From assembly GCA_905221605.1 (NCBI GenBank), contig CAJNDS010000005.1, forward strand, positions 62,001 through 126,000: a DNA stretch of 64,000 bases, in the 5' to 3' direction. Positions 13,001 to 57,585 of this stretch are shown here, piece by piece; within the stretch, counting starts at the first letter, position 1, and each line of letters begins with the position of its first letter. The stretch is from Symbiodinium natans. Its lineage: Eukaryota; Sar; Dinophyceae; Suessiales; Symbiodiniaceae. Made by a program: the position numbers and the translations under genes. Under the pieces are notes generated by a model. It saw only the letters and a list, made by a program, of their open reading frames with translations, had not been told where the DNA came from and did not search any database.

Positions 13001-13873
13001 GGCCCGTGGAGGAGCCGTGGTGGTGGAGTACTTGCTAAAGCAGAGCGATGAAAAGCCTGGGCCTCAGCCAGAAGGTTTGTCGTTGCCTGGTGGAGGCTTT
13101 GCTAAACTAACATAACGCTGTGCAGCTTCGTCAGCTCTTGGTTTTCAGGCTTGGGTACAATGCGCAGACCGGACAGTGCGCAGCCCCGCCTTCACCAGCG
13201 CTGAAAGCCGAAAAAGCTTCAGCAGAGAAGTGACTCTAATTCGCAAGATCATGAGGTACGTCGACATGATTGCCAACGGCATCATAGCACGTGGCTCAGT
13301 CATGCTTTCTGCCTCTCCCGCGTGCATCGGCACATGTATTGCCACTGGTGCAAGTACATTAACTGATGCTCTCGTCATGTCTCGACTCAGCTGCTGACCA
13401 CGTAGAGCTTGGCTCTGTTGGCCCTTCAAGAAATTCGGCACTGGAGCCGAGTGTGAGTAAAAGTAAACGTCACAATGCCTCCCTCAAACCGGGTTGCGCT
13501 TGAGAGCCACGGGCCCCGGAACAGCCCCAGGGCCTCCCCACGACGTCCAACTCAGGACCCAACGAAGGTGGTGAGATGCGCTCTTGCTGACGCTGCATCG
13601 GTGCCAAGCCTAGAGTCTGCTCTCTCTCCGAGACATCACCGGCGCTTTCAAAGTCTTCGAAGTAACTTTGTGTGGGGCAGGTGGCCTCGCTGATGACAAC
13701 TACAGAGTGCCTCGTGACAGAGATCCCCGAAGAGAAGCCAGCAGGTGAGAAGCCCATGCGCATTTCTGCCAAGCTGCTGTCTTTCTGTGAACACGGCAGG
13801 TGGTGGTGGCCCAGGCGGCATGGGTGGAATGGGTGGAATGGGTGGCATGGGCATGGATGATGGCTGGGACTGA
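68..13873 (+). CDS. HSP60: Mitochondrial-type chaperonin HSP60 (Cpn60), 5' partial, about 33 exons
   Basis: Group I chaperonin of the GroEL family: the ATP-driven ring that, with Cpn10, refolds imported proteins. Family-ordered exons run from [12 protein letters not shown] at 68 to a Gly-Gly-Met tail, DDGWD and TGA at 13871-13873. The start codon, any transit peptide and the first part of the equatorial domain lie left of the window. Exons sit in four clusters (68-1016, 7287-9554, 10652-11494, 13012-13873) separated by introns of about 6.3, 1.1 and 1.5 kb. Almost every junction restores family sequence without a gap, so the gene looks intact. Of 32 inferred donors, 19 read GC, 11 GT and 2 GA. 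Internal residues such as KISSVQ and VNKLRGG resemble mitochondrial rather than plastid Cpn60; this assignment is inference because no targeting sequence is visible. Confidence 0.96.
1251..1278 (+). repeat. Interstitial telomere-type repeat (TTTAGGG)4
   Basis: Four exact head-to-tail TTTAGGG units lie inside the long HSP60 intron. TTTAGGG is the plant/algal-type telomere repeat and is the one reported for dinoflagellates. The tract is too short and too internal to be a chromosome end. Confidence 0.9.
3152..3265 (+). repeat. 10-bp tandem repeat, consensus ATGTTAGTCT
   Basis: About eleven units with occasional single-base variants (a TTCGTCT unit, a CAGTAGTCC interruption). It lies within the long HSP60 intron with no coding signal around it. 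Confidence 0.9.
7287..9554 (+). CDS. HSP60: HSP60 exon cluster 2: intermediate and apical domains
   Basis: Exons: 7287-7337 ([17 protein letters not shown]), 7390-7452 ([14 protein letters not shown], the apical-domain signature), 7902-7961 ([11 protein letters not shown]), 8053-8091 ([13 protein letters not shown]), 8372-8416 ([12 protein letters not shown]), 8551-8610 ([16 protein letters not shown]), 8756-8794 ([12 protein letters not shown]), 9131-9169 ([12 protein letters not shown]), 9235-9309 ([11 protein letters not shown]), 9380-9415 ([12 protein letters not shown]) and about 9498-9554 (CEQIQAAIE). The APGFGD motif is diagnostic. The 52-base intron 7338-7389 begins with GA and ends with AG. 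The 9415/9498 junction restores the frame only with a one-base shift from a standard AG acceptor. Confidence 0.95.
9555..10651 (+). other. 1.1-kb HSP60 intron
   Basis: GC donor after 9554, AG acceptor before 10652. No gene seen. It contains a stretch at about 10320-10430 rich in GAAGCC and CCAAA words, resembling similar stretches near 33150, 34080, 34440 and 40630. Confidence 0.7.
10652..11494 (+). CDS. HSP60: HSP60 exon cluster 3: return to the equatorial domain
   Basis: Exons: 10652-10680 (SSEYEKDK), 10746-10794 ([16 protein letters not shown]), 10893-10931 ([13 protein letters not shown]), 10984-11040 ([16 protein letters not shown]), 11129-11183 ([17 protein letters not shown], the conserved PGGG hinge), 11295-11357 ([12 protein letters not shown]) and 11455-11494 ([10 protein letters not shown]). 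Phases match across every junction, including split codons at 10680/10746 and 11040/11129, which makes these exon limits reliable. Donors are GT (10680, 10794, 11183, 11357) and GC (10931, 11040, 11494). Confidence 0.95.
11495..13011 (+). other. 1.5-kb HSP60 intron
   Basis: GC donor after the NAGKEG exon, acceptor before the AVVVEYLL exon; the split Gly codon is restored. It holds a (CACT)n microsatellite at about 12290-12312 and T runs near 12918-12926. No independent gene is supported. Confidence 0.75.
13012..13873 (+). CDS. HSP60: HSP60 exon cluster 4: C-terminal equatorial helices and GGM tail
   Basis: Exons: 13012-13074 ([14 protein letters not shown]), about 13149-13175 (LGYNAQTG), 13256-13286 ([10 protein letters not shown]), 13556-13600 ([15 protein letters not shown]), 13681-13744 ([15 protein letters not shown]) and 13800-13873. 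The last exon encodes repeated Gly-Gly-Met then DDGWD and TGA at 13871-13873. The DPTKVVR and [13 protein letters not shown] motifs are family hallmarks. Junctions 13286/13556, 13600/13681 and 13744/13800 are in phase; 13074/13149 needs one extra G and is unresolved. The acidic DDGWD ending after the GGM tail differs from the usual short hydrophobic end. Confidence 0.95.
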
Positions 13874-16200: not shown

Positions 16201-19200
16201 GAGGGTTTGTCGCCATGTGCCATATTCGACATGGTTCGCTTTTGACTCCTCTTGACTCTTGCTTTGACTCAGGCCGGTTCATGGGCCTGGCAATTTGGGC
16301 ACTTTGCTGCCTGCATGGTCTCAGCTATGCAGAGGACGCCGCGTGCCAAGAGTGCTGGGAGTATATCTGAGCATGTGTGAACGTGTCGCTGCCTCCAAAA
16401 GCCGAAGTATGAGAGACGAGGGAGAGATGGACAGCAACCTGAGAGCAATCTGAGAGCAACCCTGGAGCATCCTTGAGGTGTTGGCTTCAGAACACTTACG
16501 AATAGGTCCCGGTACGAAGAGTTCACTGCGAAAAGATGGAGGCGCCTCGGCCTGCGCAGCGAAGCTCCTGACTGCTTTTTTTTTTGTTTGGTGTTGCGGG
16601 GTTCAAAAATTAGGTCTTCAACAGCCATTCTACCGGTCTGCTCGTGGCTGGACGAAGCTTACGTACGACGACGACCCCATGGATCTGGCATTCAAGGCAG
16701 GAGATGCAGATTTGCTGGTTGCGAAGGGTTTAGGGTGCTCCCATGCGGGGTGCTCGAAGGGGTGCCCTCATGACCAAGTTTCTTGCAAACCGACCAGCCT
16801 TGCTGGACACTTTTGGCTGTGGTTGTGCGCTGCGTGTGGATGTGCAGATCGGTACAGTCCTGTGATGTCGCTTTGATGGTCTTGTGGTCTTTCCTTCCCA
16901 TACTTGCTTGTCGAGGTCCCAAAAAGACATTCCATTCTGGGTTCTCTGTTCGTTCTTGGCAGATGATGAGTATCCGGAGCGAGCATTTTCCAGCATCCCA
17001 CTCACTACGCATTGTAGCAAGCAGAATTTTTTCTGCGCATGGGCTGGCAACTCAACTGCTGTCCTGCATGTCAGCTGGAAGCAGTTGCAATCTCAGCTGT
17101 CCATTTCGCCTCCTTGGCTTTCTTGGAATCGCGCTGGCCTGTGTCGGGCCTGGACCTAGTTTTCCTCGACAGCAGCTGGAACGACATGACAGAAGAGGGG
17201 GTGGAACACCAGAAGATGGCCGCGTGCGGCGGTGTTCAGCGATCCCAATGCGCAGGGAAACATTTGGCAAACAGCTCTGCCGGGGCATGCGATGGCCTCC
17301 GGCGTTGGGGCATACTGTGGTCATGCGGGTGGTGAAGGGATGGTGGAAGACTGCCAAAAGTTCAAGAGGGTGAGGGGTTAGTTTGCGCGCCGAATGGCAA
17401 GAGCCTGTGCACCAATCGCCTGAAAGAGTCATCATGTTACCCAACTAAACGACTAAACAAGGTTAGGCCAAACCCCGACCTTTGGGCAGATGTCACGACC
17501 AGGTTGATGGTCAGCTTGCTCGAATAGGCACGGCCATGCGGAGTTCAAGTCGTGCCCATTTGTCGTGATTCCGACTGCTGAGGTCGCACGTCGAACAACT
17601 TCCACAATGCCACTTACGCGGAGGTGTCATCTGTCCTCATGGTTGATGACGTTGCTCGTGTGGCTTGACTGGTTGTGACTGCCTGGCAAAGTCATGAGGC
17701 AGTCTAATGCGTACCTAACCTCATTGGTGCAACTTTGTGTGCCATGAGAGAGCGTGCAGTGCAGCCCAGAGATCGGATGTTGTGGGCAATTATTCGTTTA
17801 GGCAGGCCTCAGAAGTTACAAGAGCATGCTCAGGCATCACTGAAGCGTTGCTTTGCTGACATAGCCAAATTCCATGTTTGGACATTTCTCCGCATAGCTA
17901 CCCACTTTGTGGGTATCAGACAGCCGAGGAATCTTTAGCTTTCCGGCCGAGACGGTCTTCAGATCCGAATTCCGCATCAAAGCTTTGGGTTCCCTGTCGA
18001 GTGTTCAGGCGGGTTCTCGCTGACACGAGATGCGCTGTGTGGCTTCAAACTCTTCGCCTTTGGCTGTGTGCAGCAACGGAAATCCGGAAATCCACATCTT
18101 TACTGCAGTTTCAGTCTCGCGCAGCATGTCAGATTTGGATGGGCACATCAGATGATTGGATCGGCACGACCGACACGCCGACAAAGGAGCAAGGCCGTGA
18201 ATGCGTTGCCGTGCATGCCGTGCAATGCTTGAAAGTTTGAGAACATGTGTGTTTCCTGCTCAGGTGCATTCCGTATGGGCGCATTTGCCTCCGTACCGCA
18301 TGGGAATGTTCTGCACGTCTTCTCGGGCGTGGCACTTAGCTGGTTGCCATGGTTTCACGAGAGCTGGGGTTGGACAACCTGAGCGTGCGTTTTGTCACGG
18401 TTCGGGACTGGTTGTTTCCAAGGCCACACCTGCGCAAACTCAAAGCTCAATTCGCATGTCCTACACGGAGGGAGCATATAGGCGTAAGAGGATCCGGAGT
18501 GCAGGAGTAGGAGGATGAGGCGGCGGCGTTGCCCCTCAGCGTTTGGGAGCATCGCTTTGGGTTATCGTCACGGGGCGTTCCATGCATCAAATGGTCCCAG
18601 GCACCAAAGCGTCGCCAACTGCTATCGGAACCTTTCAAAAATCAAGGTCGGAATGAAACCCAGGATTTTTTCGGGCAAGCCTGCTAGCAAAGCCTTCCCT
18701 ATGGACGACAAGCTAAACGGATGGAAGAGAAGGGTGCGCATGCGTCAATGCCATAGCTTTAGCCATCCCAGCTTAATGACCCTTCGGGTGGCTGGGGCTG
18801 GGGTCCTGTAAATGCACAAGTTTGACGAACAGAAGCTGCAAGTCGAGGCCATGTCGGGCTCCCGTTTGAGAGCGTCAGGGGTCTGTATTGGTCTGGGTCA
18901 GGTGATAGCACCGGCCAGGGGCACCGAAGTACTGCCCGATTTTCTGCACCGCAGCAAAACGCACAAAGAAAGAAGGATGTTGCTCAGCAATGAAGCACAA
19001 ACAGTCAATTGTTCGACTGAGGTGATGAAGATGTCTTCTTCTTCTCAACTCACCCTGAAAGTCATGCCCTCATCCTCTCCCACTACGGCCATTGGAATGA
19101 CTTGGTTGCCCAAGCCTCAGTCGTTTATTGGTCTAAGTTGGTCCCAGGCTAGTTTCAACCTGGAGTTGCATTGTATATGCCTTGGGGTGCGCTGCGTTGA

Positions 19201-22200
19201 GCAGAAGCTTGCAGATTGAAAAGATCTGCAGTCACTGGAGAGCTACCAAAAAGCTTGCTTGCGCAGGGAGTGACGGCGTCAGATTTGCACTCTTCCCAAT
19301 CTGATGGGGCATATGGTGTTTATGCTGGAGCCTTAGTGAGGGTGAGAGAAGCACGTGGAATGGGATGTGATTCCACGTCCACATCCTCAGGTGCCCGTGG
19401 GATCTTTTGGCGCGGGCGAGAGCAAGTCAGTGAGTATTTTCTTTGCGGTCGCTTGGAAATCGACTCGTATCATGCTCTGTCTAGCAGTCCCACTCTGTCT
19501 CCGCATGTGGGGAGGTTTGCAAGGCTTTATTCGCCTCTGAGGCTGCCGATGGTGCCCACTTGGCAGAGCTCCTCCACCAAGCGGAGGCCGCACACAGGGC
19601 AGGCCTGGAACAGTGCTGAGGAGACATGCCCAGCATGTCTCCAAATTCCGACGGTCCCCGCCTGCAGACGTTGCAAGCACCACGTCTTTACACACCACGG
19701 CCGCGCCCATTACGACCACCACGACCACCACGACCCTCCAGGCGCTGCTTGTCCTGGGGTTGCAGACCGCAATGCGCACCAGCATGACAGACTTGTCCAG
19801 GTACTGCAGACGCAGGCCCTGAAACTGGGGGTCCTCCCGAGTGGAGGCGAGACCAAGCGCTTGGACCATGCTTGCCCGAAGAAAGCCTGAACAACAAATA
19901 CTTTGCCCCAGGCCTCGGGCAGCCGTTCTACAAGTCCAGCAGACGTGGGTGGACGAAGCTGACATACAACAAGCAGAACCTGGACTGCAGCGTCAAGGTG
20001 TGATTGCGGAGTGTGGAAAGGCTGCCATCTGCTGTGGGTGAGAGTCATCCGCAGGTGGATGGACACTTGACGGACATCGGTCGTACAGGCCTCAGAAAGG
20101 ATCAGCAAAGAGCCCTTGACAGGTGTATCAGTTTGGGGAGCCGGAGTGTTTCCAGGCGCAAGTTGCGGCTAGTTAGCCTTCTGAGGCGACGTAACGCTCG
20201 ACGTCAAGAACTCGACCTACGCCAGAGCCAGCGGTGCCTTAACGGTGTCTGGGATGCCCAAGGTGCCTTGACATCTCGGCTTGTGAATGTGAGCAGTGTG
20301 TGACAATGAGAGCAAGCAGCCGCGTGTGCAGCTGCATGTCAAGCCCTGCCAGGTGCAACTCACCAGAAGCTTGGACTAGCTTGGACTCGATGAGATGCGC
20401 CGTGATTGGGCTGTGCATGAGTTGCCCGAAGCAATCAAACTGGTCCGTGTCATTCCGTATCGGTTTCGAGGGGGGTTTGTGCGCCCAGGAACTTACAGCT
20501 TCCTTGGTGATGGCATGGTCTTCAAGGCCAACTTCAAGCTCCGGGCCTTGCAGCCGGTATCCAGTGCGCAGGCCTGGGTGGGGGGCGCCTCGGGTGGCGC
20601 GGGCGGCGCGGGCGGTTCGTGTTTGTCCCAGGGGCAGAAGCAAGATCAATCGAGCTTGCAGCCGGCAGGTGTGGTTGGGGACTTCCGATGACTGGATTGG
20701 GACATCCGATCGACCTACGAAGGTCCAAGGTAGGGCTCGGGCTGATGCGGGGGCTTCACATTCCCGCGCAGATCAACTGATCAGCGGCCTTTTCTTGTGT
20801 ATTCATGCAGTTAGCAGGTGTCTTTCAAGGAGGCGACTTCGTTCCAGTTCCCCACGGCCGCATCTTGCGAGTGCAATCAGGCGCCGGACATAATGGGGGC
20901 TGGAGGATTATCAGTTGTGTCCCCCTGTCATGCGGCTGTGAAAAGCAAACGAGATGTGTGTGCCACGAGGTGAGGAGGACGTCTTCGTGTACTCGACTCA
21001 CCCCGACAGCCACACTATCATAGAGTCCCACTATGGCCAGTGGGACGACGTGATAGCGGAAGCCTCAGCAACGAGCAGCAAGGAGACCTCCTAGCTCCCT
21101 TGCTTTCAAGGGCGCGACAGAATCGGAGCTCCATAGTTCAACTTCCGATGGAGCCTATGGCATCTACGTCCGGATCCCAGTGCCCGTGTCCTTGCATGTC
21201 CTTGGTCTTCGCCGTGCTGTGCGATGCTGCCCGGTGCTCCAGGTGCCATTTGGCGCACTCGCCGCTGGGGAGAGCAAGTCGGCCAGCATCTACTATGCTG
21301 CCCCTCGCGCTGCAGCCAGACGAGCGACGCAAACCTTACAATGTCACCGTGCAGCCATGTGCAGCCACGAGGCAGCCGATGCTGACAACTTGGCAGAGCT
21401 CCTCCACCAAGCGGAGGCCGCACACAACGCAGGCCTGGAAAGTGCTGAGGGGTTTTAGCCATCATGCCTCAACGTTCCGGCCGTCCCCGCCTGCAGACGT
21501 GGTAAGCACCACGTCTTTACACACCACGGCCGCGCCCATTACGACCGCCACGACCACCACGACCCTCCAGGCGCTGCTTGTCCTGGGGTTGCAGACCGCA
21601 ATGCGCACCAGCATGACAGACTTGTCCAGGTGCTGCAGACGCAGGCCCTGAAACTGGGGGTCCTCCCGAGTGGAGGCGAGACCAAGCGCTTGGACCATGC
21701 TTGCCCGAAGAAAGCCTGAACAACAAATACTTTGATCCAGGCCTCGGGCAGCCGTTCTACAAGTCCAGCAGACGTGGGTGGACGAAGCTGACATACAACA
21801 AGCAGAACCTGGACTGCAGCGTCAAGGTGTGATTGCGGAGTGTGGAAAGGCTGCCATCTGCTGTGGGTGAGAGTCATCCGCAGGTGGATGGACACTTGAC
21901 GGACATCGGTCGTACAGGCCTCAGAAAGGATCAGCAAAGAGCCCTTGACAGGTGTATCAGTTTGGGGAGCCGGAGTGTTTCCAGGCGCAAGTTGCGGCTA
22001 GTTAGCCTTCTGAGGCGACGTAACGCTCGACGTCAAGAACTCGACCTACGCCAGAGCCAGCGGTGCCTTAACGGTGTCTGGGATGCCCAAGGTGCCTTGA
22101 CATCTCGGCTTGTGAATGTGAGCAGTGTGTGACAATGAGAGCAAGCAGCCGCGTGTGCAGCTGCATGTCAAGCCCTGCCAGGTGCAACTCACCAGAAGCT

Positions 22201-25200
22201 TGGACTAGCTTGGACTCGATGAGATGCGCCGTGATTGGGCTGTGCATGAGTTGCCCGAAGCAATCAAACTGGTCCGTGTCATTCCGTATCGGTTTCGAGG
22301 GGGGTTTGTGCGCCCAGGAACTTACAGCTTCCTTGGTGATGGCATGGTCTTCAAGGCCAACTTCAAGCTCCGGGCCTTGCAGCCGGTATCCAGTGCGCAG
22401 GCCTGGGTGGGGGGCGCCTCGGGTGGCGCGGGCGGCGCGGGCGGTTCGTGTTTGTCCCAGGGGCAGAAGCAAGATCAATCGAGCTTGCAGCCGGCAGGTG
22501 TGGTTGGGGACTTCCGATGACTGGATTGGGACATCCGATCGACCTACGAAGGTCCAAGGTAGGGCTCGGGCTGATGCGGGGGCTTCACATTCCCGCGCAG
22601 ATCAACTGATCAGCGGCCTTTTCTTGTGTATTCATGCAGTTAGCAGGTGTCTTTCAAGGAGGCGACTTCGTTCCAGTTCCCCACGGCCGCATCTTGCGAG
22701 TGCAATCAGGCGCCGGACATAATGGGGGCTGGAGGATTATCAGTTGTGTCCCCCTGTCATGCGGCTGTGAAAAGCAAACGAGATGTGTGTGCCACGAGGT
22801 GAGGAGGACGTCTTCGTGTACTCGACTCACCCCGACAGCCACACTATCATAGAGTCCCACTATGGCCAGTGGGACGACGTGATAGCGGAAGCCTCAGCAA
22901 CGAGCAGCAAGGAGACCTCCTAGCTCCCTTGCTTTCAAGGGCGCGACAGAATCGGAGCTCCATAGTTCAACTTCCGATGGAGCCTATGGCATCTACGTCC
23001 GGATCCCAGTGCCCGTGTCTTTGCATGTCCTTGGTCTTCGCCGTGCTGTGCGATGCTGCCCGGTGCTCCAGGTGCCATTTGGCGCACTCGCCGCTGGGGA
23101 GAGCAAGTCGGCCAGCATCTACTATGCTGCCCCTCGCGCTGCAGCCAGACGAGCGACGCAAACCTTACAATGTCACCGTGCAGCCATGTGCAGCCACGAG
23201 GCAGCCGATGCTGACAACTTGGCAGAGCTCCTCCACCAAGCGGAGGCCGCACACAACGCAGGCCTGGAAAGTGCTGAGGGGTTTTAGCCATCATGCCTCC
23301 ACGTTCCGGCCGTCCCGCCTGCAGACGTTGTAAGCACCACGTCTTTACCCACCACGGCCGCGCCCATTACGACCACCACAACCACCACGACCCTCCAGGC
23401 GCTGCTTGTCCTGGGGTTGCAGACCGCAATGCGCACCAGCATGACAGACTTGTCCAGGTGCTGCAGACGCAGGCCCTGAAACTGGGGGTCCTCCCGAGTG
23501 GAGGCGAGACCAAGCGCTTGGACCATGCTTGCCCGAAGAAAGCCTGAACAACAAATACTTTGCCCCAGGCCTCGGGCAGCCGTTCTACAAGTCCAGCAGA
23601 CGTGGGTGGACGAAGCTGACATACAACAAGCAGAACCTGGACTGCAGCGTCAAGGTGTGATTGCGGAGTGTGGAAAGGCTGCCATCTGCTGTGGGTGAGA
23701 GTCATCCGCAGGTGGATGGACACTTGACGGACATCGGTCGTACAGGCCTCAGAAAGGATCAGCAAAGAGCCCTTGACAGGTGTATCAGTTTGGGGAGCCG
23801 GAGTGTTTCCAGGCGCAAGTTGCGGCTAGTTAGCCTTCTGAGGCGACGTAACGCTCGACGTCAAGAACTCGACCTACGCCAGAGCCAGCGGTGCCTTAAC
23901 GGTGTCTGGGATGCCCAAGGTGCCTTGACATCTCGGCTTGTGAATGTGAGCAGTGTGTGACAATGAGAGCAAGCAGCTGTGAGTGTGCAGCTGCATGTCA
24001 AGCCCTGCCAGGTGCAACTCACTAGAAGCTTGGACTAGCTTGGACTCGATGAGATGTGCCGTGATTGGGCTGTGCATGAGTTGCCCGAAGCAATCAAACT
24101 GGTCCGTGTCATTCCGTATCGGTTTCGAGGGGGGTTTGTGCGCCCAGGAACTTACAGCTTCCTTGGTGATGGCATGGTCTTCAAGGCCAACTTCAAGCTC
24201 CGGGCCTTGCAGCCGGTATCCAGTGCGCAGGCCTGGGTGGGGGGCGCCTCGGGTGGCGCGGGCGGCGCGGGCGGTTCGTGTTTGTCCCAGGGGCAGAAGC
24301 AAGATCAATCGAGCTTGCAGCCGGCAGGTGTGGTTGGGGACTTCCGATGACTGGATTGGGACATCCGATCGACCTACGAAGGTCCAAGGTAGGGCTCGGG
24401 CTGATGCGGGGGCTTCACATTCCCGCGCAGATCAACTGATCAGCGGCCTTTTCTTGTGTATTCATGCAGTTAGCAGGTGTCTTTCAAGGAGGCGACTTCG
24501 TTCCAGTTCCCCACGGCCGCATCTTGCGAGTGCAATCAGGCGCCGGACATAATGGGGGCTGGAGGATTATCAGTTGTGTCCCCCTGTCATGCGGCTGTGA
24601 AAAGCAAACGAGATGTGTGTGCCACGAGGTGAGGAGGACGTCTTCGTGTACTCGACTCACCCCGACAGCCACACTATCATAGAGTCCCACTATGGCCAGT
24701 GGGACGACGTGATAGCGGAAGCCTCAGCAACGAGCAGCAAGGAGACCTCCTAGCTCCCTTGCTTTCAAGGGCGCGACAGAATCGGAGCTCCATAGTTCAA
24801 CTTCCGATGGAGCCTATGGCATCTACGTCCGGATCCCAGTGCCCGTGTCTTTGCATGTCCTTGGTCTTCGCCGTGCTGTGCGATGCTGCCCGGTGCTCCA
24901 GGTGCCATTTGGCGCACTCGCCGCTGGGGAGAGCAAGTCGGCCAGCATCTACTATGCCGCCCCTCGCGCTGCAGCCAGACGAGCGACGCAAACCTTACAA
25001 TGTCACCGTGCAGCCATGTGCAGCCACGAGGCAGCCGATGCTGACAACTTGGCAGAGCTCCTCCACCAAGCGGAGGCCGCACACAACGCAGGCCTGGAAA
25101 GGGCTGAGGGGTTTTAGCCATCATGCCTCCACGTTCCGGCCGTCCCTGCCTGCAGACGTTGTAAGCACCACGTCTTTACCCACCACGGCCGCGCCCATTA

Positions 25201-28200
25201 CAACCACCACAACCACCACGACCCTCCAGGCGCTGCTTGTCCTGGGGTTGCAGACCGCAATGCGCACCAGCATGACAGACTTGTCCAGGTGCTGCAGACG
25301 CAGGCCCTTAAACTGGGGTTCCTCCCGAGCGGAGGCGAGACCAAGCGCTTGGACCATGCTTGCCCGAAGAAAGCCTGAACAACAAATACTTTGCTCCAGG
25401 CCTCGGGCAGCCGTTCTACAAGTCCAGCAGACGTGGGTGGACGAAGCTGACATACAACAAGCAGAACCTGGACTGCAGCGTCAAGGTGTGATTGCGGAGT
25501 GTGGAAAGGCTGCCATCTGCTGTGGGTGAGAGTCATCCGCAGGTGGATGGACACTTGACGGACATCGGTCGTACAGGCCTCAGAAAGGATCAGCAAAGAG
25601 CCCTCGACAGGTGCATCAGTTTGGGGAGCCGGAGTGTTTCCAGGCGCAAGTTGCGGCTAGTTAGCCTTCTGAGGCGATGTAGCGCTCGACTACAAGAACT
25701 CGACCTACGCCAGAGCCAGCGGTGCCTTAACCGTGTCTGGGATGCCCAAGGTGCCTTGACATCTTGGCATGTCGCATGTGAGCAGTATGTCACAATGAGA
25801 GCAAGCAGCCGTGAGTGTGCAGCTGTGCATGTCGAGCCGTGCCAGGTGCAACTCACTAGAAGCTTGGACTAGCTTGGACTCGATGAGATGTGCCGTGATT
25901 GGGCTGTGCATGAGTTGCCCGAAGCAATCAAACTGGTCCGTGTCATTCCGTATCGGTTTCGAGGGGGGTTTGTGCGCCCAGGAACTTACAGCTTCCTTGG
26001 TGATGGCATGGTCTTCAAGGCCAACTTCAAGCTCCGGGCCTTGCAGCCAGTATCCAGCGCGCAGGCCTGGGTGGGCACGGCACGGGCGGCGCGTGTGGCG
26101 CGGGCTGCGCGGGTTTGTCCCACGCATCGCAGAAGAAGCAAGATCAATCGAGACTGCAGCCGGCAGGTGTGGTTGGGGACTTCCGATGACTGGATTGGGA
26201 CATCGGATCGGCCCACGAAGGTCCAAGGTCGGGCTCGGGCCGATGCGGGGGGTTCACATCACCGCACAGATCAGCCGATCAGTGGCCTTTTCTTGTGTAT
26301 TCATGCAGTTAGCAGGTGTCTTTCAAGGAGGCGACTTCGTTCCAGCTCCCCATGGCCGCATCTTGCGAGTGCAATCAGGTGCCGGACGCAAAGTGGGCTG
26401 GAGGATTATCAGTTGTGTCCCCCTCGCATGTGACTGTGAAAAGCAGCGAGACGCGTGTGACACGAGGTGAGGAGGACGTCTTCGTGTACTCGACTCACCC
26501 CGACAGCCACGCTATTATAGAGTCCCACTATGGCCAGTGGGACGACGTGATAGCGGAAGCCTCAGCAACGAGCAGCAAGGAGACCTCCTAGCTCCCTTGC
26601 TTTCAAGGGCGCGACAGAATCGGAGCTCCATAGTTCAACTTCCGATGGAGCCTATGGCATCTACGTCCGGATCCCAGTGCCCGTGTCTTTGCATGTCCTT
26701 GGTCTTCGCCGTGCTGTGCGATGCTGCCCGGTGCTCCAGGTGCCATTTGGCGCACTCGCCGCTGGGGAGAGCAAGTCGGCCAGCATCTACTATGCCGCCC
26801 CTCGCGCTGCAGCCAGACGAGCGACGCAAACCTTACAATGTCACCGTGCAGCCATGTGCAGCCACGAGGCAGCCGATGCTGACAACTTGGCAGAGCTCCT
26901 CCACCAAGCGGAGGCCGCACACAACGCAGGCCTGGAAAGGGCTGAGGGGTTTTAGCCATCATGCCTCCACGTTCCGGCCGTCCCTGCCTGCAGACGTTGT
27001 AAGCACCACGTCTTTACCCACCACGGCCGCGCCCATTACGACCACCACGACCACCACGATCCTCCAGGCGCTGCTTGTCCTGGGGTTGCAGACCGCAATG
27101 CGCACCAGCATGACAGACTTGTCCAGGTGCTGCAGACGCAGGCCCTTAAACTGGGGTTCCTCCCGAGCGGAGGCGAGACCAAGCGCTTGGACCATGCTTG
27201 CCCGAAGAAAGCCTGAACAACAAATACTTTGCTCCAGGCCTCGGGCAGCCGTTCTACAAGTCCAGCAGACGTGGGTGGACGAAGCTGACATACAACAAGC
27301 AGAACCTGGACTGCAGCGTCAAGGTGTGATTGCGGAGTGTGGAAAGGCTGCCATCTGCTGTGGGTGAGAGTCATCCGCAGGTGGATGGACACTTGACGGA
27401 CATCGGTCGTACAGGCCTCAGAAAGGATCAGCAAAGAGCCCTCGACAGGTGCATCAGTTTGGGGAGCCGGAGTGTTTCCAGGCGCAAGTTGCGGCTAGTT
27501 AGCCTTCTGAGGCGATGTAGCGCTCGACTACAAGAACTCGACCTACGCCAGAGCCAGCGGTGCCTTAACCGTGTCTGGGATGCCCAAGGTGCCTTGACAT
27601 CTTGGCATGTCGCATGTGAGCCGTATGTCACAATGAGAGCAAGCAGCCGTGAGTGTGCAGCTGCATGTCGAGCCGTGCCAGGTGCAACTCACTAGAAGCT
27701 TGGACTAGCTTGGACTCGATGAGATGTGCCGTGATTGGGCTGTGCATGAGTTGCCCGAAGCAATCAAACTGGTCCGTGTCATTCCGTATCGGTTTCGAGG
27801 GGGGTTTGTTCGCCCAGGAACTTACAGCTTCCTTGGTGATGGCATGGTCTTCAAGGCCAACTTCAAGCTCCGGGCCTTGCAGCCAGTATCCAGCGCGCAG
27901 GCCTGGGTGGGCATGGCACGGGCGGCGCGTGTGGCGCGGGCTGCGCGGGTTTGTCCCAGGGGCTGAAGCGCATCGCAGAAGAAGCAAGATCAATCGAGAC
28001 TGCAGCCGGCAGGTGTGGTTGGGGACTTCCGATGACTGGATTGGGACATCGGATCGGCCCACGAAGGTCCAAGGTCGGGCTCGGGCCGATGCGGGGGGTT
28101 CACATCACCGCACAGATCAGCCGATCAGTGGCCTTTTCTTGTGTATTCATGCAGTCAGCAGGTGTCTTTCAAGGAGGCGACTTCGTTCCAGCTCCCCATG

Positions 28201-31200
28201 GCCGCATCTTGCGAGTGCAATCAGGTGCCGGACGCAAAGTGGGCTGGAGGATTATCAGTTGTGTCCCCCTCGCATGTGACTGTGAAAAGCAGCGAGATGC
28301 GTGTGACACGAGGTGAGGAGGACGTCTTCGTGTACTCGACTCACCCCGACAGCCACGCTATTATAGAGTCCCACTATGGCCAGTGGGACGACGTGATAGC
28401 GGAAGCCTCAGCAACGAGCAGCAAGGAGACCTCCTAGCTCCCTTGCTTTCAAGGGCGCGACAGAATCGGAGCTCCATAGTTCAACTTCCGATGGAGCCTA
28501 TGGCATCTACGTCCGGATCCCAGTGCCCGTGTCTTTGCATGTCCTTGGTCTTCGCCGTGCTGTGCGATGCTGCCCGGTGCTCCAGGTGCCATTTGGCGCA
28601 CTCGCCGCTGGGGAGAGCAAGTCGGCCAGCATCTACTATGCCGCCCCTCGCGCTGCAGCCAGATGGGCGGTGCACTTGCGGCTTGTGCTGTCAGATATTT
28701 GTTGTCGTGCTTCGACTACCAGAAGCGGGCTGCAGGCCGCCGATGCCGATCGATTGGGGGAGCTGCTCATGCATGCCAGCCAAGCTTCACAACAAGGCAG
28801 CGATGGCCGAAGTCACTCACTCGGCGTTGCAGCCCATGTGCACTGTGTGCGCATCCCGAGATGCCGACACCACGACCACACCAGAACCAGCCGAAGTGGA
28901 ACACGCTCAGTGCTCAGTGCCGTATAGTGCGGTGTGCGCAGTCGGGGGTTGGTGCAAGCAAGCTGATGACAACGTACACGAGGGTTTCTGTCCTAGATCC
29001 TGAAATCCTCGACGATGCAGTTTGACCTTCTCACAGAAGGAGGCATGGACAGGGCTAGACGATCATTTTTTAAGAGCTCTGTGACCCGGTCGTGGAGAAC
29101 TCGTCAGGTCTTGGCGATCCCCTTTACCATTCTGCACTCATGGACTGGACGAAGCTGACTAACGACCATCAGAACATGGAATGCACCGTAAAGGCTTGCC
29201 TTGCCTGATCTTGCCTGGATCTGTCACAATTGCGCTTTCCTACATGTAAAACGAATCGAGAATGTCGATCAGCTCTGCAAGGTGAATGGCAGACCGGTGG
29301 ACTACAACAGCCGGGCTCTTGGAATCCCAGGACACTCGCGCCAAACGCACATGTTAGAGACATCCGCAATGCTTGTTCCTTGCATGTCGAAGTCGCCACA
29401 AGCTTGCTGAGTAGCTCCATAAATGCCGCTTCTCTTGGAAGTTGAATCAATGTCACAGGATGTAGGAATGCGCCAGTTTCTGCCGGTTTTCGTGTCGGTT
29501 GCCCTGCGGCCTGTTAGCGCATCCAAGGCTCTCACGGCCCCCCCCCAGAACTGTGAAGGCTAAAGTTGTCTGCTTTGCACCTGTCCTTTACACCAAGCTC
29601 AGGTGATCCACATGAAGTGTATTTCAGCAACTCGACCTATGCCACAGCCGTTTCGTCATTGTCGTTGGACGGAACTGATGTAGTACCTTGGCCGAGTAGA
29701 CGACCTTCGAAGCCACTCCAGGAGAACTAGGAGCACTACTCGTACTTGTAGTACATTTGCAGTACATTCGGTGTTGTGCCTGAGGCAGTTCTGACACGTC
29801 GCCTGGCTTTAGAAGTGCAACATGCCATAGCGTACCCTGACGCTGATGACATCTGAGTAAGCATTGGCTAAGCATGTGTGTCTGGGCTCAGGGAGATACA
29901 CGTTCCTGGAAGACGGCCTTGTCTTCCGTGCCCAGTTCACTATTGCCGCGCTGGCCGATATCCCAAACCTACAGGCAAGGGACGTGTCGAAATGATGGGA
30001 TGATGGACTGCTTCAAGGGACCGAACGATTGTGAGCTGGCAGCGACTCAGGCAATTTGTTGAGCTACGAATTGAGCCACAAAGTTTGGATGCCGCAGGTG
30101 TGGATGGGAACGTCCAATGACTGGCTTGGGGACAATGACCGGCCCACGAAGGAACAAGGTGGCTCGTTTGCCCCTTTCGGCAAGTTCTCTGCACGATGCT
30201 TCGCAACCCCGGGGGCGGTTTCCGGTTTCCGCCTGCTCTCCTAGGTGCTTTTCACGGGGATGAGTTTATTCCGATGCCAACAGCACAAGTGTTGCGGCTT
30301 CGATCCAGTCCGGCCCTCGATCTTTGCAGAGAGATCCTGTCCAGGCCAGTGCCAAAAGGGATCAAAAGGGCCTAGAGCATTGCGCTCAGGAGGGGACACG
30401 ATGTTCTTCTTCTCGAACCACCCTGACAGCCACGCTATCATTGTGGAGCACTCCGGGCGCTGGCAGGACGTAGACGTTTCTCCGTTTGCAGTGAGAGACT
30501 TTTTCACACATGTCACTCGCATGGTGTTGCGATCACAGCATGGAGCGGTGCCTCAACCACAAAAGGCGCTCACCTCTTCCGCAGCGAGAACATCGGTCGC
30601 CGATGGCGCATATGGCATCTATGTGAGCGTTGCTGCAGCCAGTTCTGTGGTTACGGGACTCACAGAGCCTGGATGTGGTTTGTGAGTGTGGGGGTCGTGT
30701 GCCAAAATGAGGGGTCTTTACGTTGCTTCTGAGGTGCCCTTTGGAAAGTTCTCCTTGGGTGAGACGAAGTCGGCGAGCTTCTTCTATGGGGCACCTCAGC
30801 TTAGTCACCACGTTTTGTCTGCCGCGGTTTAGAGCTTAGAGGACTCCGTGCCCTTTCGTGGCTGGCGGCGTGACAAAGCAAACTTTAGCGATGCTCCGCA
30901 CGGATTGTTTCCAGTCAAGCGTAGCTTGTTGCAAGTGCTGAAAGCATCTGAGAGCAGTGTCAAAGAATAGCTGAGTAGCTTGTTTTCTTTCACGCTTCCG
31001 GCGGCTCCAGCCACGATGCATCCGCGAACACCTAGGCGGCAACGTGTCCTGCAGAAGTTACAGTAGTTGGTTTGCTCATAGCATGTTTGCTCAACGTGAA
31101 ATGTACGGAAATACGGGAGAGATGCAGATTCCTTGTGTAATCGGAATGGAATTTCGTCGTTGTGTGGCTACTTCATCTGAGGCACTGATACAAACGAAGA

Positions 31201-31858
31201 ACGGAAAGGAGTGCGGAGTAGAATAGCCGTCATGACGAAGTCAGTTTGGTCGAGGGTTGGACGTCATCATGCGTCATCATGGGTTTGGCATGGATGCAGA
31301 CGTGAACGGACGAGGTCGCCCCCCTCCCCAAACTTCTCCGCTCCCAGCCCCACGCCCCACCCTCCCCTCCCAGCAACAGAAGTGATCGCATACGGATATC
31401 CTGCTCCAAACGAGCCAGACAGGGCCTAGTTTTGGTTTGGAGCCGACACACCGGCCTTTAGCCCAGCACCGGCTGAGTTGCCTGAGGCGACAGACGCGGA
31501 TCGCGTAGTGGACCTCGTGCCAGCGTCAGCCAGGGTTTTCCGCAATTATCCGATGCCGCCGACGAGGTCCAATCTCTTGGCATCACGGCTGGCACATCTC
31601 GGCATGTCTTTGCGCATACATGTTGTGTTTGCTCACAACGGCGTACTGACCGGTAGCACACTAACCTTTGCGTCGCATATGCATATGTCGCCGTGGCACG
31701 CGTGGAGAGACATGTGGGCAGCAAATTCCTCTGAAGTGGCCGACAAGCTGCTTAAGCTGCACGCGGCTGAGGTACAGGATTACGAGCAATGTCAAGATGG
31801 CTCGGCAAATTCATCTGTGGAGCCTGAGTTCAAGAAGTATCCTTTGTATATGGAATGA
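15213..31858 (+). CDS. Large modular gene with seven repeated domains, function unknown
   Basis: I do not recognise the protein family. Seven modules (A blocks at 16614, 19912, 21741, 23569, 25400, 27238, 29108) each encode about 240 residues through a fixed series of short exons: A (GWTKLTY), C (NSTYA), B (FLGDGMVFKANF), D (GTSDDWIGTSDRPTK), H (GGDFVPVPHGRILRV), I (STHPDSHAIIESHYGQWDD), J (DGAYGIY), E (FGALAAGESKSASIYYA), F (AADADNLAELLHQAEAAH), then a Thr-rich linker. Modules 1-5 are near identical; modules 0 and 6 are diverged but keep exon lengths. I read it as one beads-on-a-string protein because linkers join F to the next A and no spacer separates modules. The alternative is a head-to-tail array of separate genes. 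The start at 15213 is a weak choice; the stop at 31856-31858 ends the last open frame. Confidence 0.7.
16614..19610 (+). CDS. Module 0 of the modular gene (diverged first copy)
   Basis: Homologous exons: A 16614-16696 (QQPFYRSARGWTKLTY), C 17583-17650 (NNFHNATYAEVSS), B 17929-18008 (SFPAETVFRSEFRIKAL), D 18133-18193 (IWMGTSDDWIGTTDTPTK), H 18264-18326 (ASVPHGNVLHVFS), I 19022-19120 (FFFSTHPESHALILSHYG), J ending 19323 (DGAYGVY), E 19391-19460 (GAGESKSVSIFFA) and F about 19542-19610 (LAELLHQAEAAHRAGLE). Introns are longer than in the array (the module spans 3.0 kb against 1.5 kb) and share no obvious sequence with it. Donors after A, B, D, H and J are GC. The F block is already very close to the array copies, so homogenisation reaches back to about 19555. 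Confidence 0.7.
19672..21500 (+). repeat. Array unit 1 (1829 bp)
   Basis: Exons: A 19912-19997, C 20186-20262, B 20489-20571, D 20669-20729, H 20818-20880, I 20970-21068, J ending 21167, E 21243-21314 and F 21372-21446. The Thr-rich linker exon at 19668-19741 straddles the unit start. Exon lengths A 86, C 77, B 83, D 61 and H 63 are the reference for the family. H ends on a GC donor. A and B begin in phase 1 although the preceding visible exons end in phase 0, so at least one small exon per gap is still missing from my model. Confidence 0.85.
21501..23328 (+). repeat. Array unit 2 (1828 bp)
   Basis: Same exon set as unit 1; A is at 21741-21826, B 22318-22400, and H ends 22709 with a GC donor. 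The acceptor before exon A reads tttgatccag instead of tttgccccag. The linker exon 21497-21570 has one Thr codon changed to Ala. Differences from unit 1 are scattered single bases. Confidence 0.85.
23329..25159 (+). repeat. Array unit 3 (1831 bp), mosaic of both subtypes
   Basis: A 23569-23654, B 24148-24230, H ends 24539 with a GC donor. The run CCCC just before the linker acceptor (about 23313) has lost one C; this base lies in the inferred intron, so the protein need not be shifted. The segment near 23976-24060 (gagtgtgcag insertion, gatgtgcc) carries variants of units 4-5, while later exon H keeps the unit 1-3 form, showing that subtype switches fall inside units. Confidence 0.85.
25160..26997 (+). 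repeat. Array unit 4 (1838 bp), second subtype
   Basis: A 25400-25485, B 25982-26064, H ends 26378 with a GT donor. The intron between B and D differs from units 1-3 (cacgggcggcgcg region, about 26078-26150). Exon C reads DVALDY rather than DVTLDV. Upstream of exon A the extended frame contains TAA (near 25309), so coding cannot extend further 5' than the ccag acceptor in this copy. Confidence 0.85.
26998..28663 (+). repeat. Array unit 5 (truncated homology)
   Basis: A 27238-27323, B 27818-27900, H ends 28224 with a GT donor. It shares the second-subtype variants with unit 4 but carries an extra ggggctgaag segment near 27957. Near-identity ends at 28663 within exon E; the F block that follows (28736) is diverged, so the module is completed by older sequence. 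Confidence 0.85.
28736..31858 (+). CDS. Module 6 and C-terminal end of the modular gene (diverged last copy)
   Basis: It starts with the F block completing module 5 (28736, AADADRLGELL) and a Thr/Pro linker at 28857-28911 (TTTTPEPAEVEHAQ). Module 6 exons: A 29108-29193 (DWTKLTNDHQNM), C 29603-29679 (YFSNSTYATAVSS), B 29892-29974 (FLEDGLVFRAQF), D 30098-30158 (VWMGTSNDWLGDNDRPTK), H 30245-30307 (GDEFIPMPTAQVLRL), I 30390-30473 (FFFSNHPDSHAIIVEHSG), J ending 30622, E 30734-30800 (GETKSASFFYGAP) and F about 31487 (EATDADRVVDL). The A, C, B, D and H lengths (86, 77, 83, 61, 63) equal those of the array exactly. A second F-like helix (SEVADKLLKLHAAEVQD) lies near 31728-31786, before the stop at 31856-31858. 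Confidence 0.7.
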
Positions 31859-53214: not shown

Positions 53215-53679
53215 GATCAGTTTGGCGACAAAGCGCTGAATCCTTGACATTCTCCAAAAACTCAATCTGGTGTTTATGGGCTTGCGCTTGTGGTGTTTGT
53301 TTGAGGGGTGGTGTGTGTGTGTACACAAACCTGTTGCCAAGCATGAATAAATGGCGGGGGGCAAGTCAGTTGACAGAGTCTGTGGGATCACTTGTCACTG
53401 CCAACGAAGACACACCAACTCTCTGGTGAAAGCATTGGCCGAGGACGTCCAATATGTACCTGTAAGCTGGCCCCCTGAGGGGGGGGGGCAGCAATTTTTT
53501 ATTAGAAAAACCTGGGCCCGTTGTGATGATGCAGCAGACTTAGTTCTGATCGCCATAGTGATAAGTCCCAAATCTGACGGACGCCTTCCAAATGAGGGTG
53601 TGTGGTGTGTGTGTGTGCTGCTGTGCGTACGTGCGTGCCGTGCGTGCGCTGGTCTCTTCTATTCTATCGCTCGTCTCTC

Positions 53680-55535
53680 TCTCCTTCTCTTTTTTCTCTC
53701 TCTCTCTCCTCTTCTCAGCCTCTCTCCTCTGCTCTCTTCCTCTCTCTATCCTCTCAGCTATCTTCTTCCCTTTTTTTTTTTTTCTCTCCTCTCTCTCTAT
53801 CTTTCTCTCTTCTCTCTCTCTCATATCTCTCTCTATCAATCTCTCATCTTGTCTCTTATATTTTTTTTTTCTCTCTCTATCTTTTCTCTCTTATCCCTTA
53901 TCTCTTTCTCTCTTTTAATTGTATCTCTTTCTCTCTTCTCCACTTCTCCCTTTCTCCTTTCTCTAATGCTCTCACTTTAATATCCCTCCTATACACCCAA
54001 TCTCTCCCTTCGTCTTCTCTATTCTCTACCAAATCTTTTCTCTCCCTTTATTTTCTCAACATTCTAGACATTTCTCTCCCTTCTCATCTCTTCATCTCTC
54101 TAGTATCTCTCTTCTCTCTCTTCTCTCTCTGTGGTAGTCTCTCATATTTTTCTCCTCTTTTCTCTATATTTTCGATCTCTTTTCTCCTCTTTTCTCTCTC
54201 TGCTTCTATATCTTTCTCCTCTTTTTTTCTTCCTTCTCGATTCTTTTGGTATATCTTCTCGCTCTTCTCTCCGCTTCTCTCTCTTCTCTTCTTCTCTCTC
54301 TTTCTCTCTCTTCTCTCTCTTCTCTCTCTTCTCTCTCTTCTCTCTATTCGCCTCTACTTCGCTCTCCTTCGCACATTCTTCGACCTCTTTCTCCATCTTT
54401 CCCTCCCTTCTCACTCCTTTTTACCCCTTCTTCTACCCCTTTCTCCCTCTTCTCCCTCCTTCTCTCTCTCCCTCTTAACCGCTCTCCCTCTTCTCTAAAT
54501 ATATTCACATCTCTCCCTCTTATCCCTATTCTCAACTTCGCCCTCTTCTCACTCTTCTCCCTCTTCTACACTTCCATCTTTCTCCCTATTCTCCCTCTTC
54601 TCCCTCATTCTCCCATCTTCTACCTCTTCTCCTCTTCTCCCTCTTCTCCCGCTTCTCCATCTTCTCCCTCTTCTCCCTTTCTCCTATTCTCCATCTTCTC
54701 CCTCTTCTCCCTATTCTCTCTCTGTTCTCTTTCTCTCTCTTATATCTTTCTCTCTCTCTTTATCTTCTCTTGTTATCTATTCTCTTCTTCTCTCTTCTCT
54801 CTCTCTACTCTTCTCTATCTACTACTATCTCCTCTTTCTTCTCTCTCTTTTTCTCTCTCTTTCTTTATCTCTCTCGTTCTCTCTCTCGGTCTCTCTCTCT
54901 TTCTCTCTCTTCTGTCTCCTCTTCTTTATCTCTCTTTTCTCTTCTTATTTCTCTCTCTTCTTTCCTCTCTTCTTGTCTTCTTCGTTCTCTCTCTTCTTTC
55001 TCTCTCTTCTTCTCTCTCTTCTTCTATCTCTGCTTTCTCTCTTTTTCTTTCCCTATCTTATTTCTCTCTCTCTTCTCTCTCTTAATTTCTCGCTTTCTTT
55101 CTCTCTCATATCTCTCTCTTCTTCCTCTCTATCTCTTCCCCCCTTCTCTCTCTCTCGCTCTTCTCTCTTCTTCTTCTATCCTTCTCTCTTGCTCTCTTCT
55201 CTATTCTCTCTTCTATCTATCCTCTTCTCTCTTCTCTGTCCTCTTCTCTCCCTTCTCTCACTTCTCCTCTCTTATCTCCCTTCTTCTTCTCTCGTCTTCT
55301 TTCTCTCTCGATTCTCCTCTCTCTCTTTCTGTCTCTTTCTCTCTGTCTCTCTCTTCTCTCTCTGTCTCTCATCTGTCTCTCTCTTTTTTCAATCTCTCTC
55401 TCTCTCTCTCTCTCGCTCGCTCTCTCTCGCTCGCTCTCTCTCGCTCGCTCTCTCTCGCTCGCTCTCTCTCGCTCGCTCTCTCTCGCTCGCTCTCTCTCGC
55501 TCGCTCTCTCTCGCTCGCTCTCTCTCGCTGTCTCT
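53680..55535 (+). repeat. 1.85-kb polypyrimidine (CT-rich) tract
   Basis: Almost uninterrupted C/T on the plus strand (CTCTCT, TTCTC, TCTCCC), ending at about 55400-55530 in roughly nine copies of a 14-bp CTCTCTCTCGCTCG unit. The open frames across it (up to 367 codons, Ser/Leu/Phe-rich or Arg/Glu-rich on the other strand) follow from the base composition and are not genes. Such tracts can form triplex (H-) DNA. Confidence 0.97.
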
Positions 55536-55546
55536 CGTGTGTGTGT

Positions 55547-55623
<77 letters not shown>

Positions 55624-55632
55624 TGTGTGTGT
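55536..55632 (+). repeat. (GT)n microsatellite
   Basis: About 45 GT units with two interruptions, joined directly to the end of the polypyrimidine tract. Long (GT)n can adopt Z-DNA. Confidence 0.97.
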
Positions 55633-55895
55633 GCGTGCGTGCGCGACTTGTTGCTGCTGTTTTTGCCTTGGGGTTCTTTGTGTTTCAAGCTACCGTGAAT
55701 TTTCATGCGGCACTCCTCCACACAAGGCTACCGGCACGGATGAGACAGCCGTGCCCATGCAGGAGACGCATCTTGTTCAGTTCCCAGTGTTCCTTTCTGT
55801 TTTTTCAACCGGACCGCTAACTGATACATTGCAGGTTTGTTTCTCCGCATGTGTATTGCAGCGCACTTCATGATGTTGATCACGCGTGTTTCAAG

Positions 55896-55973
55896 GTTAA
55901 GATCGTTATTGCCGAGCTGTTCGGTGCCGAGAAGCGTTCAGCTGAGACCTTCGAGATTCCTTGTTCTTCACAG
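55896..55973 (+). CDS. Candidate exon (IVIAELFGAEKRSAETFEIP)
   Basis: 26 codons between a tcaag acceptor and the sequence cag/attgtt; soluble, natural composition. It is an isolated exon with no recognised family. Confidence 0.3.
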
Positions 55974-57414
55974 ATTGTTCGAGGACTATTGCGATTGCTA
56001 ATGATTGCCAAGGACGCTTGGGCTCAGGATAGAGAGCCGAGTTGTAACCGCCTTCACGAAGGAAGAGGCTCCCCGCCGATGTGTCGCTGTGAAGCTGCCT
56101 GAAGCTGCCTGAAGCTGCCTGAAGCTGCCTGAAGCTGCCTGAAGCTGCTTGAAGCTGCGTGAAGCTCTTGAAGCTCAACTAAGGCCGTCCGATTGGGTTG
56201 GCGACTCGGCGACTGCATCATTGCAGTCGGACGTCAACGAGTTCCAACGCAGGCACAGGGAGTATCACAAGGCTTGCTATAGATCACGCAAAAGGGCTGT
56301 TCGGTGTTCTCTCTAGGAAGCGCTGCTGTCTGGAATCTCCAGCTGCAAGGAGGCACGAGCTTTCATCAAACCTTCGCGTGACTGTTGGGGTCTCAGACCG
56401 CTTAAGGCTCTGCGAATGAACGGCACTCCGATTGAGTTCCTCGTCGAGAGAATGGGTGCCCGGCCGTAAGCAGACGGAATAATGATGAATCACCCACCGG
56501 CCATGCCTGCATGGTGGGCTGTAGCAAACAGATCACCGGACAAGAAGGTAGGATCGTAAAATAAGGTACTCGTAGTGCCTGGTGCTGGCAAGGCCCTGGT
56601 AGGACGCAGCCGCTGCAGAATCTGCAGCGCGGTTCACCACATGTCAGAGCTAGCCTCAGCTCTGAAAGATTCTGAGGGGCTTGGACCCCGTGGCATGCTG
56701 GATGGATGCTGCCATTTGAACCTGCCCCGTGCTGTTTGAGCCGTCGCATGGGCACCTTTTTCCACTGCCTGAGAACATGCCTGCGCTAGGCATGCACACG
56801 CCCCGTCAGAAAAGATCAAGACATAGATGGCAAGGGTTGATGAGGGCTTGGTGCATGGCCCTTCTCGTGCGTTTTGGAAAGATTTTCATGGATGGTGAAT
56901 CTAGACTGCCTGTTTGCAGCTTGGTGTTGGCTCATTTGTGAACCACCCGTGCTGTCAGCGAGCGAAGGCACGATGAAAACTGCTGACCACCCGTGAACCA
57001 AGGGTAAGCACATGGCTTCTGGCCGGGTGATCAGGATTGGCTTGTTGCGCGATGAACTTTGCAGCTGGGCAGGCTTCGGCATAGAACAGGTATGTAGAGT
57101 CAATGTAGAGGCCGATTCGGAGTCCTGTGCCTTGAGGTTGGCTTGCCGATTGATATGCCCTTGTCCATGCGGGGTGCCTACTTTGGACACGCTCCATTGG
57201 CTGCTCCATCCTCTGTCCATGGCAGCAAGTACGGTACGCCATGCTTCAAAAGATCCGTCCAGGCCAATGCCTTTGATGAAGCACTTTGGGGACGAGGTTC
57301 GACTCTGGGCTTTGTCTTCTTTTGCATTCTGTGAAGGCACAGCCTGGGAGATCTGCAGTTGATGCTGGCAGGTCAGCACTGGTGACGATTCCGAGGAAGG
57401 GCTCTGCGTAGCAC
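55974..57414. other. 1.4 kb without a confident gene
   Basis: It holds the 10-bp repeat at 56091-56170. A segment near 57225-57345 (KYGTPCFKRSVQANAFDEAL) looks protein-like but its limits are unknown. Confidence 0.35.
56091..56170 (+). repeat. 10-bp tandem repeat, unit GAAGCTGCCT
   Basis: Five exact and two or three variant units in a row, flanked by non-coding sequence. Confidence 0.9.
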
Positions 57415-57508
57415 GTCACGGCAATATGCAGCCTGCTCTTACAGACTGGTGTTGCTTGTCTGTCACGGCAATATGCAGCCTGCTCTTACAGACTGGTGTT
57501 GCTTGTCT
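57415..57508 (+). repeat. Exact 47-bp tandem duplication upstream of the cold-shock gene
   Basis: Copies 57415-57461 and 57462-57508 are identical. The array ends 77 bases before the chosen ATG (57586), so it lies in the 5' untranslated or promoter region. Confidence 0.95.
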
Positions 57509-57585
57509 GCCAAAGATCGGCTCATTGCGAGCGGCTAGGCTCAAGATGTCTTCTTAAGCTCGACGTAGCAGTAGTATGTGCAACG

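Follow-up and report, generated by a model that had tools for sequence, protein, structure and literature searches.

We analysed a 64,000-nt window of the dinoflagellate Symbiodinium natans genome (assembly GCA_905221605.1, contig CAJNDS010000005.1, positions 62,001-126,000 of the forward strand; coordinates below are those of the window). The window contains an array of five near-identical head-to-tail units, which is probably the centre of one nuclear dinoflagellate gene for a large, apparently secreted, adhesin-like protein with seven tandem copies of one domain and recombining central repeats. By sequence, this domain shares homology with an N-terminal domain, so far unnamed, that occurs in surface-type proteins of Bacteroidota. 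While duplication of units within a gene is already known in dinoflagellates, the new element here is an intron-split module of bacterial type.

A five-unit array within one open joined frame

Self-BLAST of the window revealed five direct copies of about 1.83 kb each on the plus strand between 19539 and 28669, confirming the array described in a first-pass annotation of this DNA. Successive units are offset by 1830, 1829, 1830 and 1838 bases and share 93-99% identity; substitution divergence between them is 0.6-5.4% of ungapped sites. Units U1 to U5 occupy 19539-21368, 21369-23197, 23198-25027, 25028-26865 and 26866-28669, with ten exons each, and homology in U5 stops just past exon E9. When one unit was searched as DNA against the 759-Mb genome, in a procedure that skips very common words, the matches listed comprised the five copies and one further match of 38 bases. 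This last match, the sole one listed outside the locus, involves a ACCACGACCACC-type stretch at 19697-19734 in the U1 intron after E1 and lies on contig C1893. The window has no N, and over 1779 ungapped columns U1 carries 21 private differences, U5 seven, U2 four, U4 two and U3 one, so the array is not a single unit copied by the assembler. The five-unit array is real in the assembly.

We built an exon model by comparing three module types. Junctions were placed by eye to keep the frame, and the 3' end of E9 could fall a few codons later; frame and phase were consistent throughout. In all five array units the exons E1, E2, E2b and E3-E9 measure 61, 86, 40, 84, 101, 61, 63, 98, 57 and 54 bases, giving 705 coding bases (235 codons), and every unit runs from phase 0 to phase 0 without a stop. 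Each unit is thus one protein module, in agreement with the first-pass annotation. In U1, exons E1-E3 including E2b lie at 19542-19602, 19912-19997, 20055-20094 and 20186-20269, and exons E4-E9 at 20471-20571, 20669-20729, 20818-20880, 20970-21067, 21111-21167 and 21243-21296. The joined proteins of U2 and U3 are identical, as are those of U4 and U5.

Translated array sequence also matched both flanks (16.6-19.5 kb and 28.7-31 kb), where we found one diverged module on each side that the first-pass annotation did not contain. The upstream module (UP, 16614-19444, plus strand) has nine exons (E2, E2b and E3-E9), takes exon E1 at 19542-19602 as its C-terminal helix, and shares 55% amino-acid identity with the array modules. 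The downstream module (DN, 28736-30790, plus strand) has ten exons, the first of which (28736-28796) encodes the C-terminal helix of the U5 domain; its identity with the array modules is 49-50% (48.5% for U1). Exons E5 (61 bases), E6 (63), E7 (98) and E8 (57) are of equal length in all seven modules.

Joined together, 69 exons between 16614 and 30790 form one stop-free frame of 1613 residues. Every array unit contains nine introns, with one more between units. The donors of the 68 introns are GC in 33 cases, GT in 24 and GA in 11, while all 68 acceptors are AG, followed by G in 67; these figures count all five near-identical units and represent about 29 distinct junction kinds. A review gives 25-74% GC and GA donors for introns of Symbiodiniaceae (PMC11453091; this and the other papers cited here are represented by excerpts). 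The use of GC and GA donors beside GT therefore points to a dinoflagellate nuclear gene. In the exon model, ten of the 11 GA donors fall at two junctions per array unit (exons E2b and E3), with none in UP and one in DN.

The four array spacers, that is, the introns between units (21297-21371, 23126-23200, 24956-25030 and 26794-26868), are each 75 bases long and open in frame. Retention of one would add 25 residues and keep the frame, as its length is a multiple of three. If the 97-base spacer ahead of U1 were retained, by contrast, a frameshift and a stop would follow.

Both gene ends are inferred from candidate terminal exons, with which the whole gene would span 16281-31858 on the plus strand and consist of a signal-like exon, seven modules and a C-terminal exon. 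The candidate first exon (16281-16353) comprises MGLAIWALCCLHGLSYAEDAACQE plus one base, resembles a signal peptide and could be joined in frame to the first module via a GC donor; among the 16 upstream ATG peptides listed, it has the most hydrophobic start (2.32, next 1.95). The candidate last exon (31487-31858) starts behind an AG acceptor with ATDADRVVDLV, an E1-like helix that would belong to the last module, and is open to its stop; this C-terminal frame had no Pfam match at 0.01.

The domain has relatives in Bacteroidota surface-type proteins

The first-pass annotation had not recognised the domain, and database searches bore this out as far as a name is concerned. Early genome, Pfam and PDB searches used a hand-joined draft module of 255 residues, and those of Pfam and PDB were repeated with modules from the exon model. 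The modules had no significant match in Pfam, NCBIfam or PDB; the weak Pfam hits, at 0.055 and 0.21, each concerned a single member. Likewise, bacterial members of the family showed no significant Pfam match within the domain (best, CARDB at 0.0028 in one of five), and the best PDB hit (0.016, covering a short part of glucoamylase A), obtained with the longer query from Flavobacterium, was gone when a profile was used. Among the open-access papers listed in literature searches, none dealt in its title or abstract opening with the domain, which has no searchable name, or with the array.

Full-length relatives, however, do exist in Bacteroidota, a relationship that the first-pass annotation lacked. 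When the module alignment was run against contigs of prokaryote genomes, 30 pattern matches emerged, of which one was a true relative, a 1933-residue Flavobacterium protein. The domain of this protein in turn retrieved three more relatives within its family and one on a Persicobacter plasmid record. The five bacterial relatives comprise those of Flavobacterium sp. UBA6721 (L037) and Persicobacter sp. JZB09 (L042) and three others (L039, L040 and L041). Among viral contigs, none of 15 candidate stretches was confirmed.

A profile of the five bacterial domains was tested on four of the seven modules, extended where possible by E1 of the following unit, and found UP at 6.7e-21, U3 at 2.2e-25, U4 at 6.3e-25 and DN at 5e-16; the best of 2000 shuffles reached 0.34. 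In a single BLASTP comparison, a joined module aligned with the Flavobacterium domain at 9e-26 (30% identity over 259 columns). This alignment runs across the E9-E1 join, which had been made before the comparison, and so supports both splicing and frame between units. It also suggests that E1 supplies the C-terminal helix to the domain before it. Judged by the bacterial relatives, the domain would begin at E2 and end with the E1 helix of the following unit, which would place the duplication break, in the E9/E1 intron, inside the last intron of the domain and not at its edge. Homology covers the whole length of about 235 residues, C-terminal helix included, and the stretches QPFY, KLTY and W-GT-DDW-G-D-PTK are common to most members. 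An alignment of 27 exon peptides from the window under the bacterial domain left most short rows misaligned.

Among the matches listed from the 759-Mb genome by a search that scores its best candidates only, all 52 protein matches of the draft module fell at this locus, as did all 13 of the bacterial domain, which were weak (best E 0.003). In a tree, the four modules UP, U3, U4 and DN grouped with support 100, so the duplications are later than the split from the sampled bacteria.

In the bacterial proteins the domain is N-terminal, following a signal-like stretch, within long open frames of at least 799 residues, three of the five ending at the end of the locus. The carriers combine it in varied mixes with Ig_7, Big_2, Lcl_C, TIG, cadherin, TSP3 or T9SS sorting domains, a few of these matches falling short of the curated cut-off and the T9SS sorting domain occurring in one carrier of five; we therefore take the carriers to be secreted surface proteins. 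The architecture differs from that in S. natans. In the bacterial open frames, as far as they extend within the loci, the domain is single, lacks introns and precedes Ig, TIG, cadherin, TSP3 or T9SS domains, whereas the dinoflagellate gene has seven copies, each split by introns, and none of those domains was seen in it.

Exons are constrained overall and introns look nearly neutral

The statement of the first-pass annotation that introns are as conserved as exons did not survive a site count. Over the five units, 21 of 705 exon sites vary compared with 83 of 1074 intron sites (Fisher p=1.8e-5), and all eight indel runs counted, the U5 end being left out, lie in introns. Between U3 and U4, for instance, 14/705 exon sites (2.0%) and 52/1118 intron sites (4.65%) differ, and between the subgroups {U1,U2,U3} and {U4,U5} introns diverge 2.3-2.7 times faster than exons.

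Synonymous divergence (dS) between these subgroups is 0.057-0.070. In comparisons of U2/U3 with U4/U5, dS is 0.057-0.063, near the intron rate of 0.047-0.058, and nonsynonymous divergence (dN) is 0.009, corresponding to a dN/dS of 0.15-0.16; for U1 against U4/U5, dN/dS is 0.27-0.30. As the intron rate approximates dS and dN is low, the introns look near neutral and the exons are constrained overall. The array units differ from DN by a dS of 1.6-1.8 and are saturated relative to UP. These values support the view, already put forward in the first-pass annotation, that the array is either young or homogenised relative to its flanking modules.

Divergence within the array is patchy

Variants found in at least two units each occur at 69 sites. 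Such sites favour a simple recent amplification in which a first parent gave three copies and a second gave two, without later conversion: 62 of the 69 split U1-U3 from U4-U5, and 67 fit one tree. The remaining two (patterns aabba and ababb) contradict the tree of the other 67. The distribution of differences along the unit also argues against that explanation. In four intron blocks picked after viewing the data, fixed differences between the subgroups number 2/133, 3/256, 43/531 and 0/154 sites, and the patchiness persists when no blocks are chosen (eight equal bins, p=5e-4, 0/2000 shuffles; scan, p=0.003, 0/300). The block richest in fixed intron differences covers alignment columns 1050-1445 (24243-24622 on the plus strand, as shown in U3) and holds 34 of the 48 within 250 of 1074 intron sites, a concentration that no shuffle out of 300 equalled. 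At the array edge, 18 of the 21 private differences of U1 fall within its first 114 ungapped sites (p=1e-19).

Patchy identity together with diverged array edges, the pattern looked for in concerted evolution, is thus present. Because subgroup divergence is patchy and the outer ends of the array differ, gene conversion or unequal crossover fits better than a single burst of duplication, and we consider simple amplification unlikely.

Alternative gene models and comparison with known systems

The main functional rival to a single multidomain protein is a polyprotein, in which the seven modules would be cut into proteins of about 235 residues, as in dinoflagellate light-harvesting complex (LHC) or Rubisco II. 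The locus shares with those genes head-to-tail coding units in one frame without stops, and Symbiodinium LHC polyproteins show within-locus duplication and suspected gene conversion (PMC4351107). Many F1-type LHC units, however, carry an SPLR cleavage motif (PMC4351107), whereas the joined modules showed no SPLR and the present protein has the appearance of a secreted one; the bacterial relatives, too, occur in long open frames with other domains. Rubisco II polyproteins are thought to be products of retroposition (PMC11453091), an origin in which introns would be lost, in contrast to the nine introns of each array unit. Taken together, cleavage into single modules appears quite unlikely.

An improbable arrangement is that of a conventional dinoflagellate tandem array, in which the units would be separate genes and spliced-leader trans-splicing would free each one from a long precursor. 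Dinoflagellates commonly have arrays of this type (PMC2488372, PMC11453091), and the array spacers do contain an in-frame start codon just before E1 (MCSHE). All four 75-base spacers nevertheless lack an in-frame stop between copies, so that a separate unit would have none, the bacterial domain continues through the E9-E1 join, and the diverged flanking modules share the same phases. An assembly artefact in which near-identical copies were miscounted and fewer units exist in reality is very improbable in view of the private differences, indels and ordered subgroups among the units and of the N-free window. A decaying relic that has lost translation would fit the weak codon scores of the terminal exons, yet is just as hard to credit for 69 exons free of stops and frameshifts, with every counted indel run in introns and the low dN/dS of U2/U3 against U4/U5.

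Other repetitive genes offer partial parallels to the proposed single gene. Spacers are more conserved than coding regions in ice-binding gene blocks of Polarella (PMC7245778). Tandem-repeat genes of Amphidinium are mostly intron-poor, whereas its psbO is both tandem and intron-rich (PMC2488372) and thus provides a precedent for intron-rich arrays. Spider silk genes likewise have tandem repeats homogenised within one gene (PMC3933166), but the dinoflagellate repeats are domain-sized modules with introns in each. What sets the locus apart from the dinoflagellate genes cited is the combination of nine introns in each unit of a single frame with a domain shared with bacterial surface-type proteins. 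Dinoflagellate luciferase consists of three domains in one chain; compared by architecture alone, it resembles the present gene in having repeated domains in one polypeptide, three rather than seven.

Proposed origin and function

Most likely, an ancestral single domain, with introns already at the positions that every module type now shares, gave rise to several modules by duplication. The two outermost would then have diverged, while the inner copies were presumably amplified to five, which unequal crossover and gene conversion would homogenise again and again. Because the units run from phase 0 to phase 0 and break in a phase-0 intron, a unit gained or lost would alter the protein by 235 residues with the frame kept. 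To this extent, as a matter of anatomy, the first-pass proposal of in-frame copy-number change by about 240 residues stands; that such change takes place in populations is conjecture.

If the modules are read from a single transcript, the resulting protein would, under this scheme, probably serve outside the cell in multivalent binding or adhesion. The functional assignment, which draws on the domains of the bacterial carriers and on the signal-like start of the gene, is in itself tentative, and a secreted, multivalent binding or adhesion role is best regarded as possible. More doubtful is the complete scenario in which a Bacteroidota surface domain was taken up by the dinoflagellate, became split by introns and gave rise to a secreted multivalent protein with recombining central modules. 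Bacterial gene transfer into dinoflagellates is well documented (PMC11453091).

Several observations weigh against parts of this account. Codon scores are poor for both candidate terminal exons: the first scores -0.257 and the last -0.033, the highest value among its three frames, whereas the UP and DN exons, themselves in the training set, reach 0.17-0.18. Constraint on the array exons is not uniform, since U1 differs from U2/U3 by five nonsynonymous and one synonymous changes, all in edge exon E1. A longest-gap test for patchiness gave a weaker result (p=0.013). Support for the tree order of UP, array and DN is 49, so their order of birth is not settled. The domain is rare in the bacterial genomes sampled: it occurred in 4 of 397 genomes of the family of the Flavobacterium relative (itself included), in 2 of 395 genomes of the order (both already known) and in 1 of 395 of the phylum (itself), the three samples being overlapping draws. 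With relatives sought in prokaryotes and the domain rare there, any transfer could have run in either direction. Finally, single-sequence structure prediction of the bacterial domain alone was unusable (predicted local distance difference test, pLDDT, 35; predicted template modelling score, pTM, 0.31) and gives the binding role no backing from a fold.

The locus offers a clean case of repeat homogenisation in one intron-rich gene, measurable separately in exons and introns, and adds a domain without a database name that is common to a dinoflagellate and to bacterial surface-type proteins. Were the complete uptake scenario correct, copy number, and hence protein length and avidity, would vary between strains, and the gene would encode a protein for recognition or adhesion that changes fast; the alga may have bacteria or animal hosts as partners. 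Variable copy number among strains would represent a testable source of algal protein-length variation, whereas with a constant number the gene would be a modular one of the usual kind, its domain as yet undescribed.

Other features of the window

Upstream of the gene, at 13675-13872 on the plus strand, the end of a joined peptide resembles a chaperonin-60 tail; Pfam gave no match for 45 residues at 0.01. If real, this candidate would be a same-strand neighbour of the gene. On the downstream side, an open frame at 57412-58467 and 61205-62116 on the plus strand has three matched cold-shock stretches (PF00313, 1.8e-34), and its DNA also repeats, at about 68% in self-BLAST; another cold-shock match, a partial one, follows some 3 kb further along (5.5e-5, under the curated cut-off). 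At 53671-55641, about 1.9 kb is strand-biased and C/T-rich, with a GC skew of -0.56 (54001-56000), and ends in a 53-copy GT repeat.

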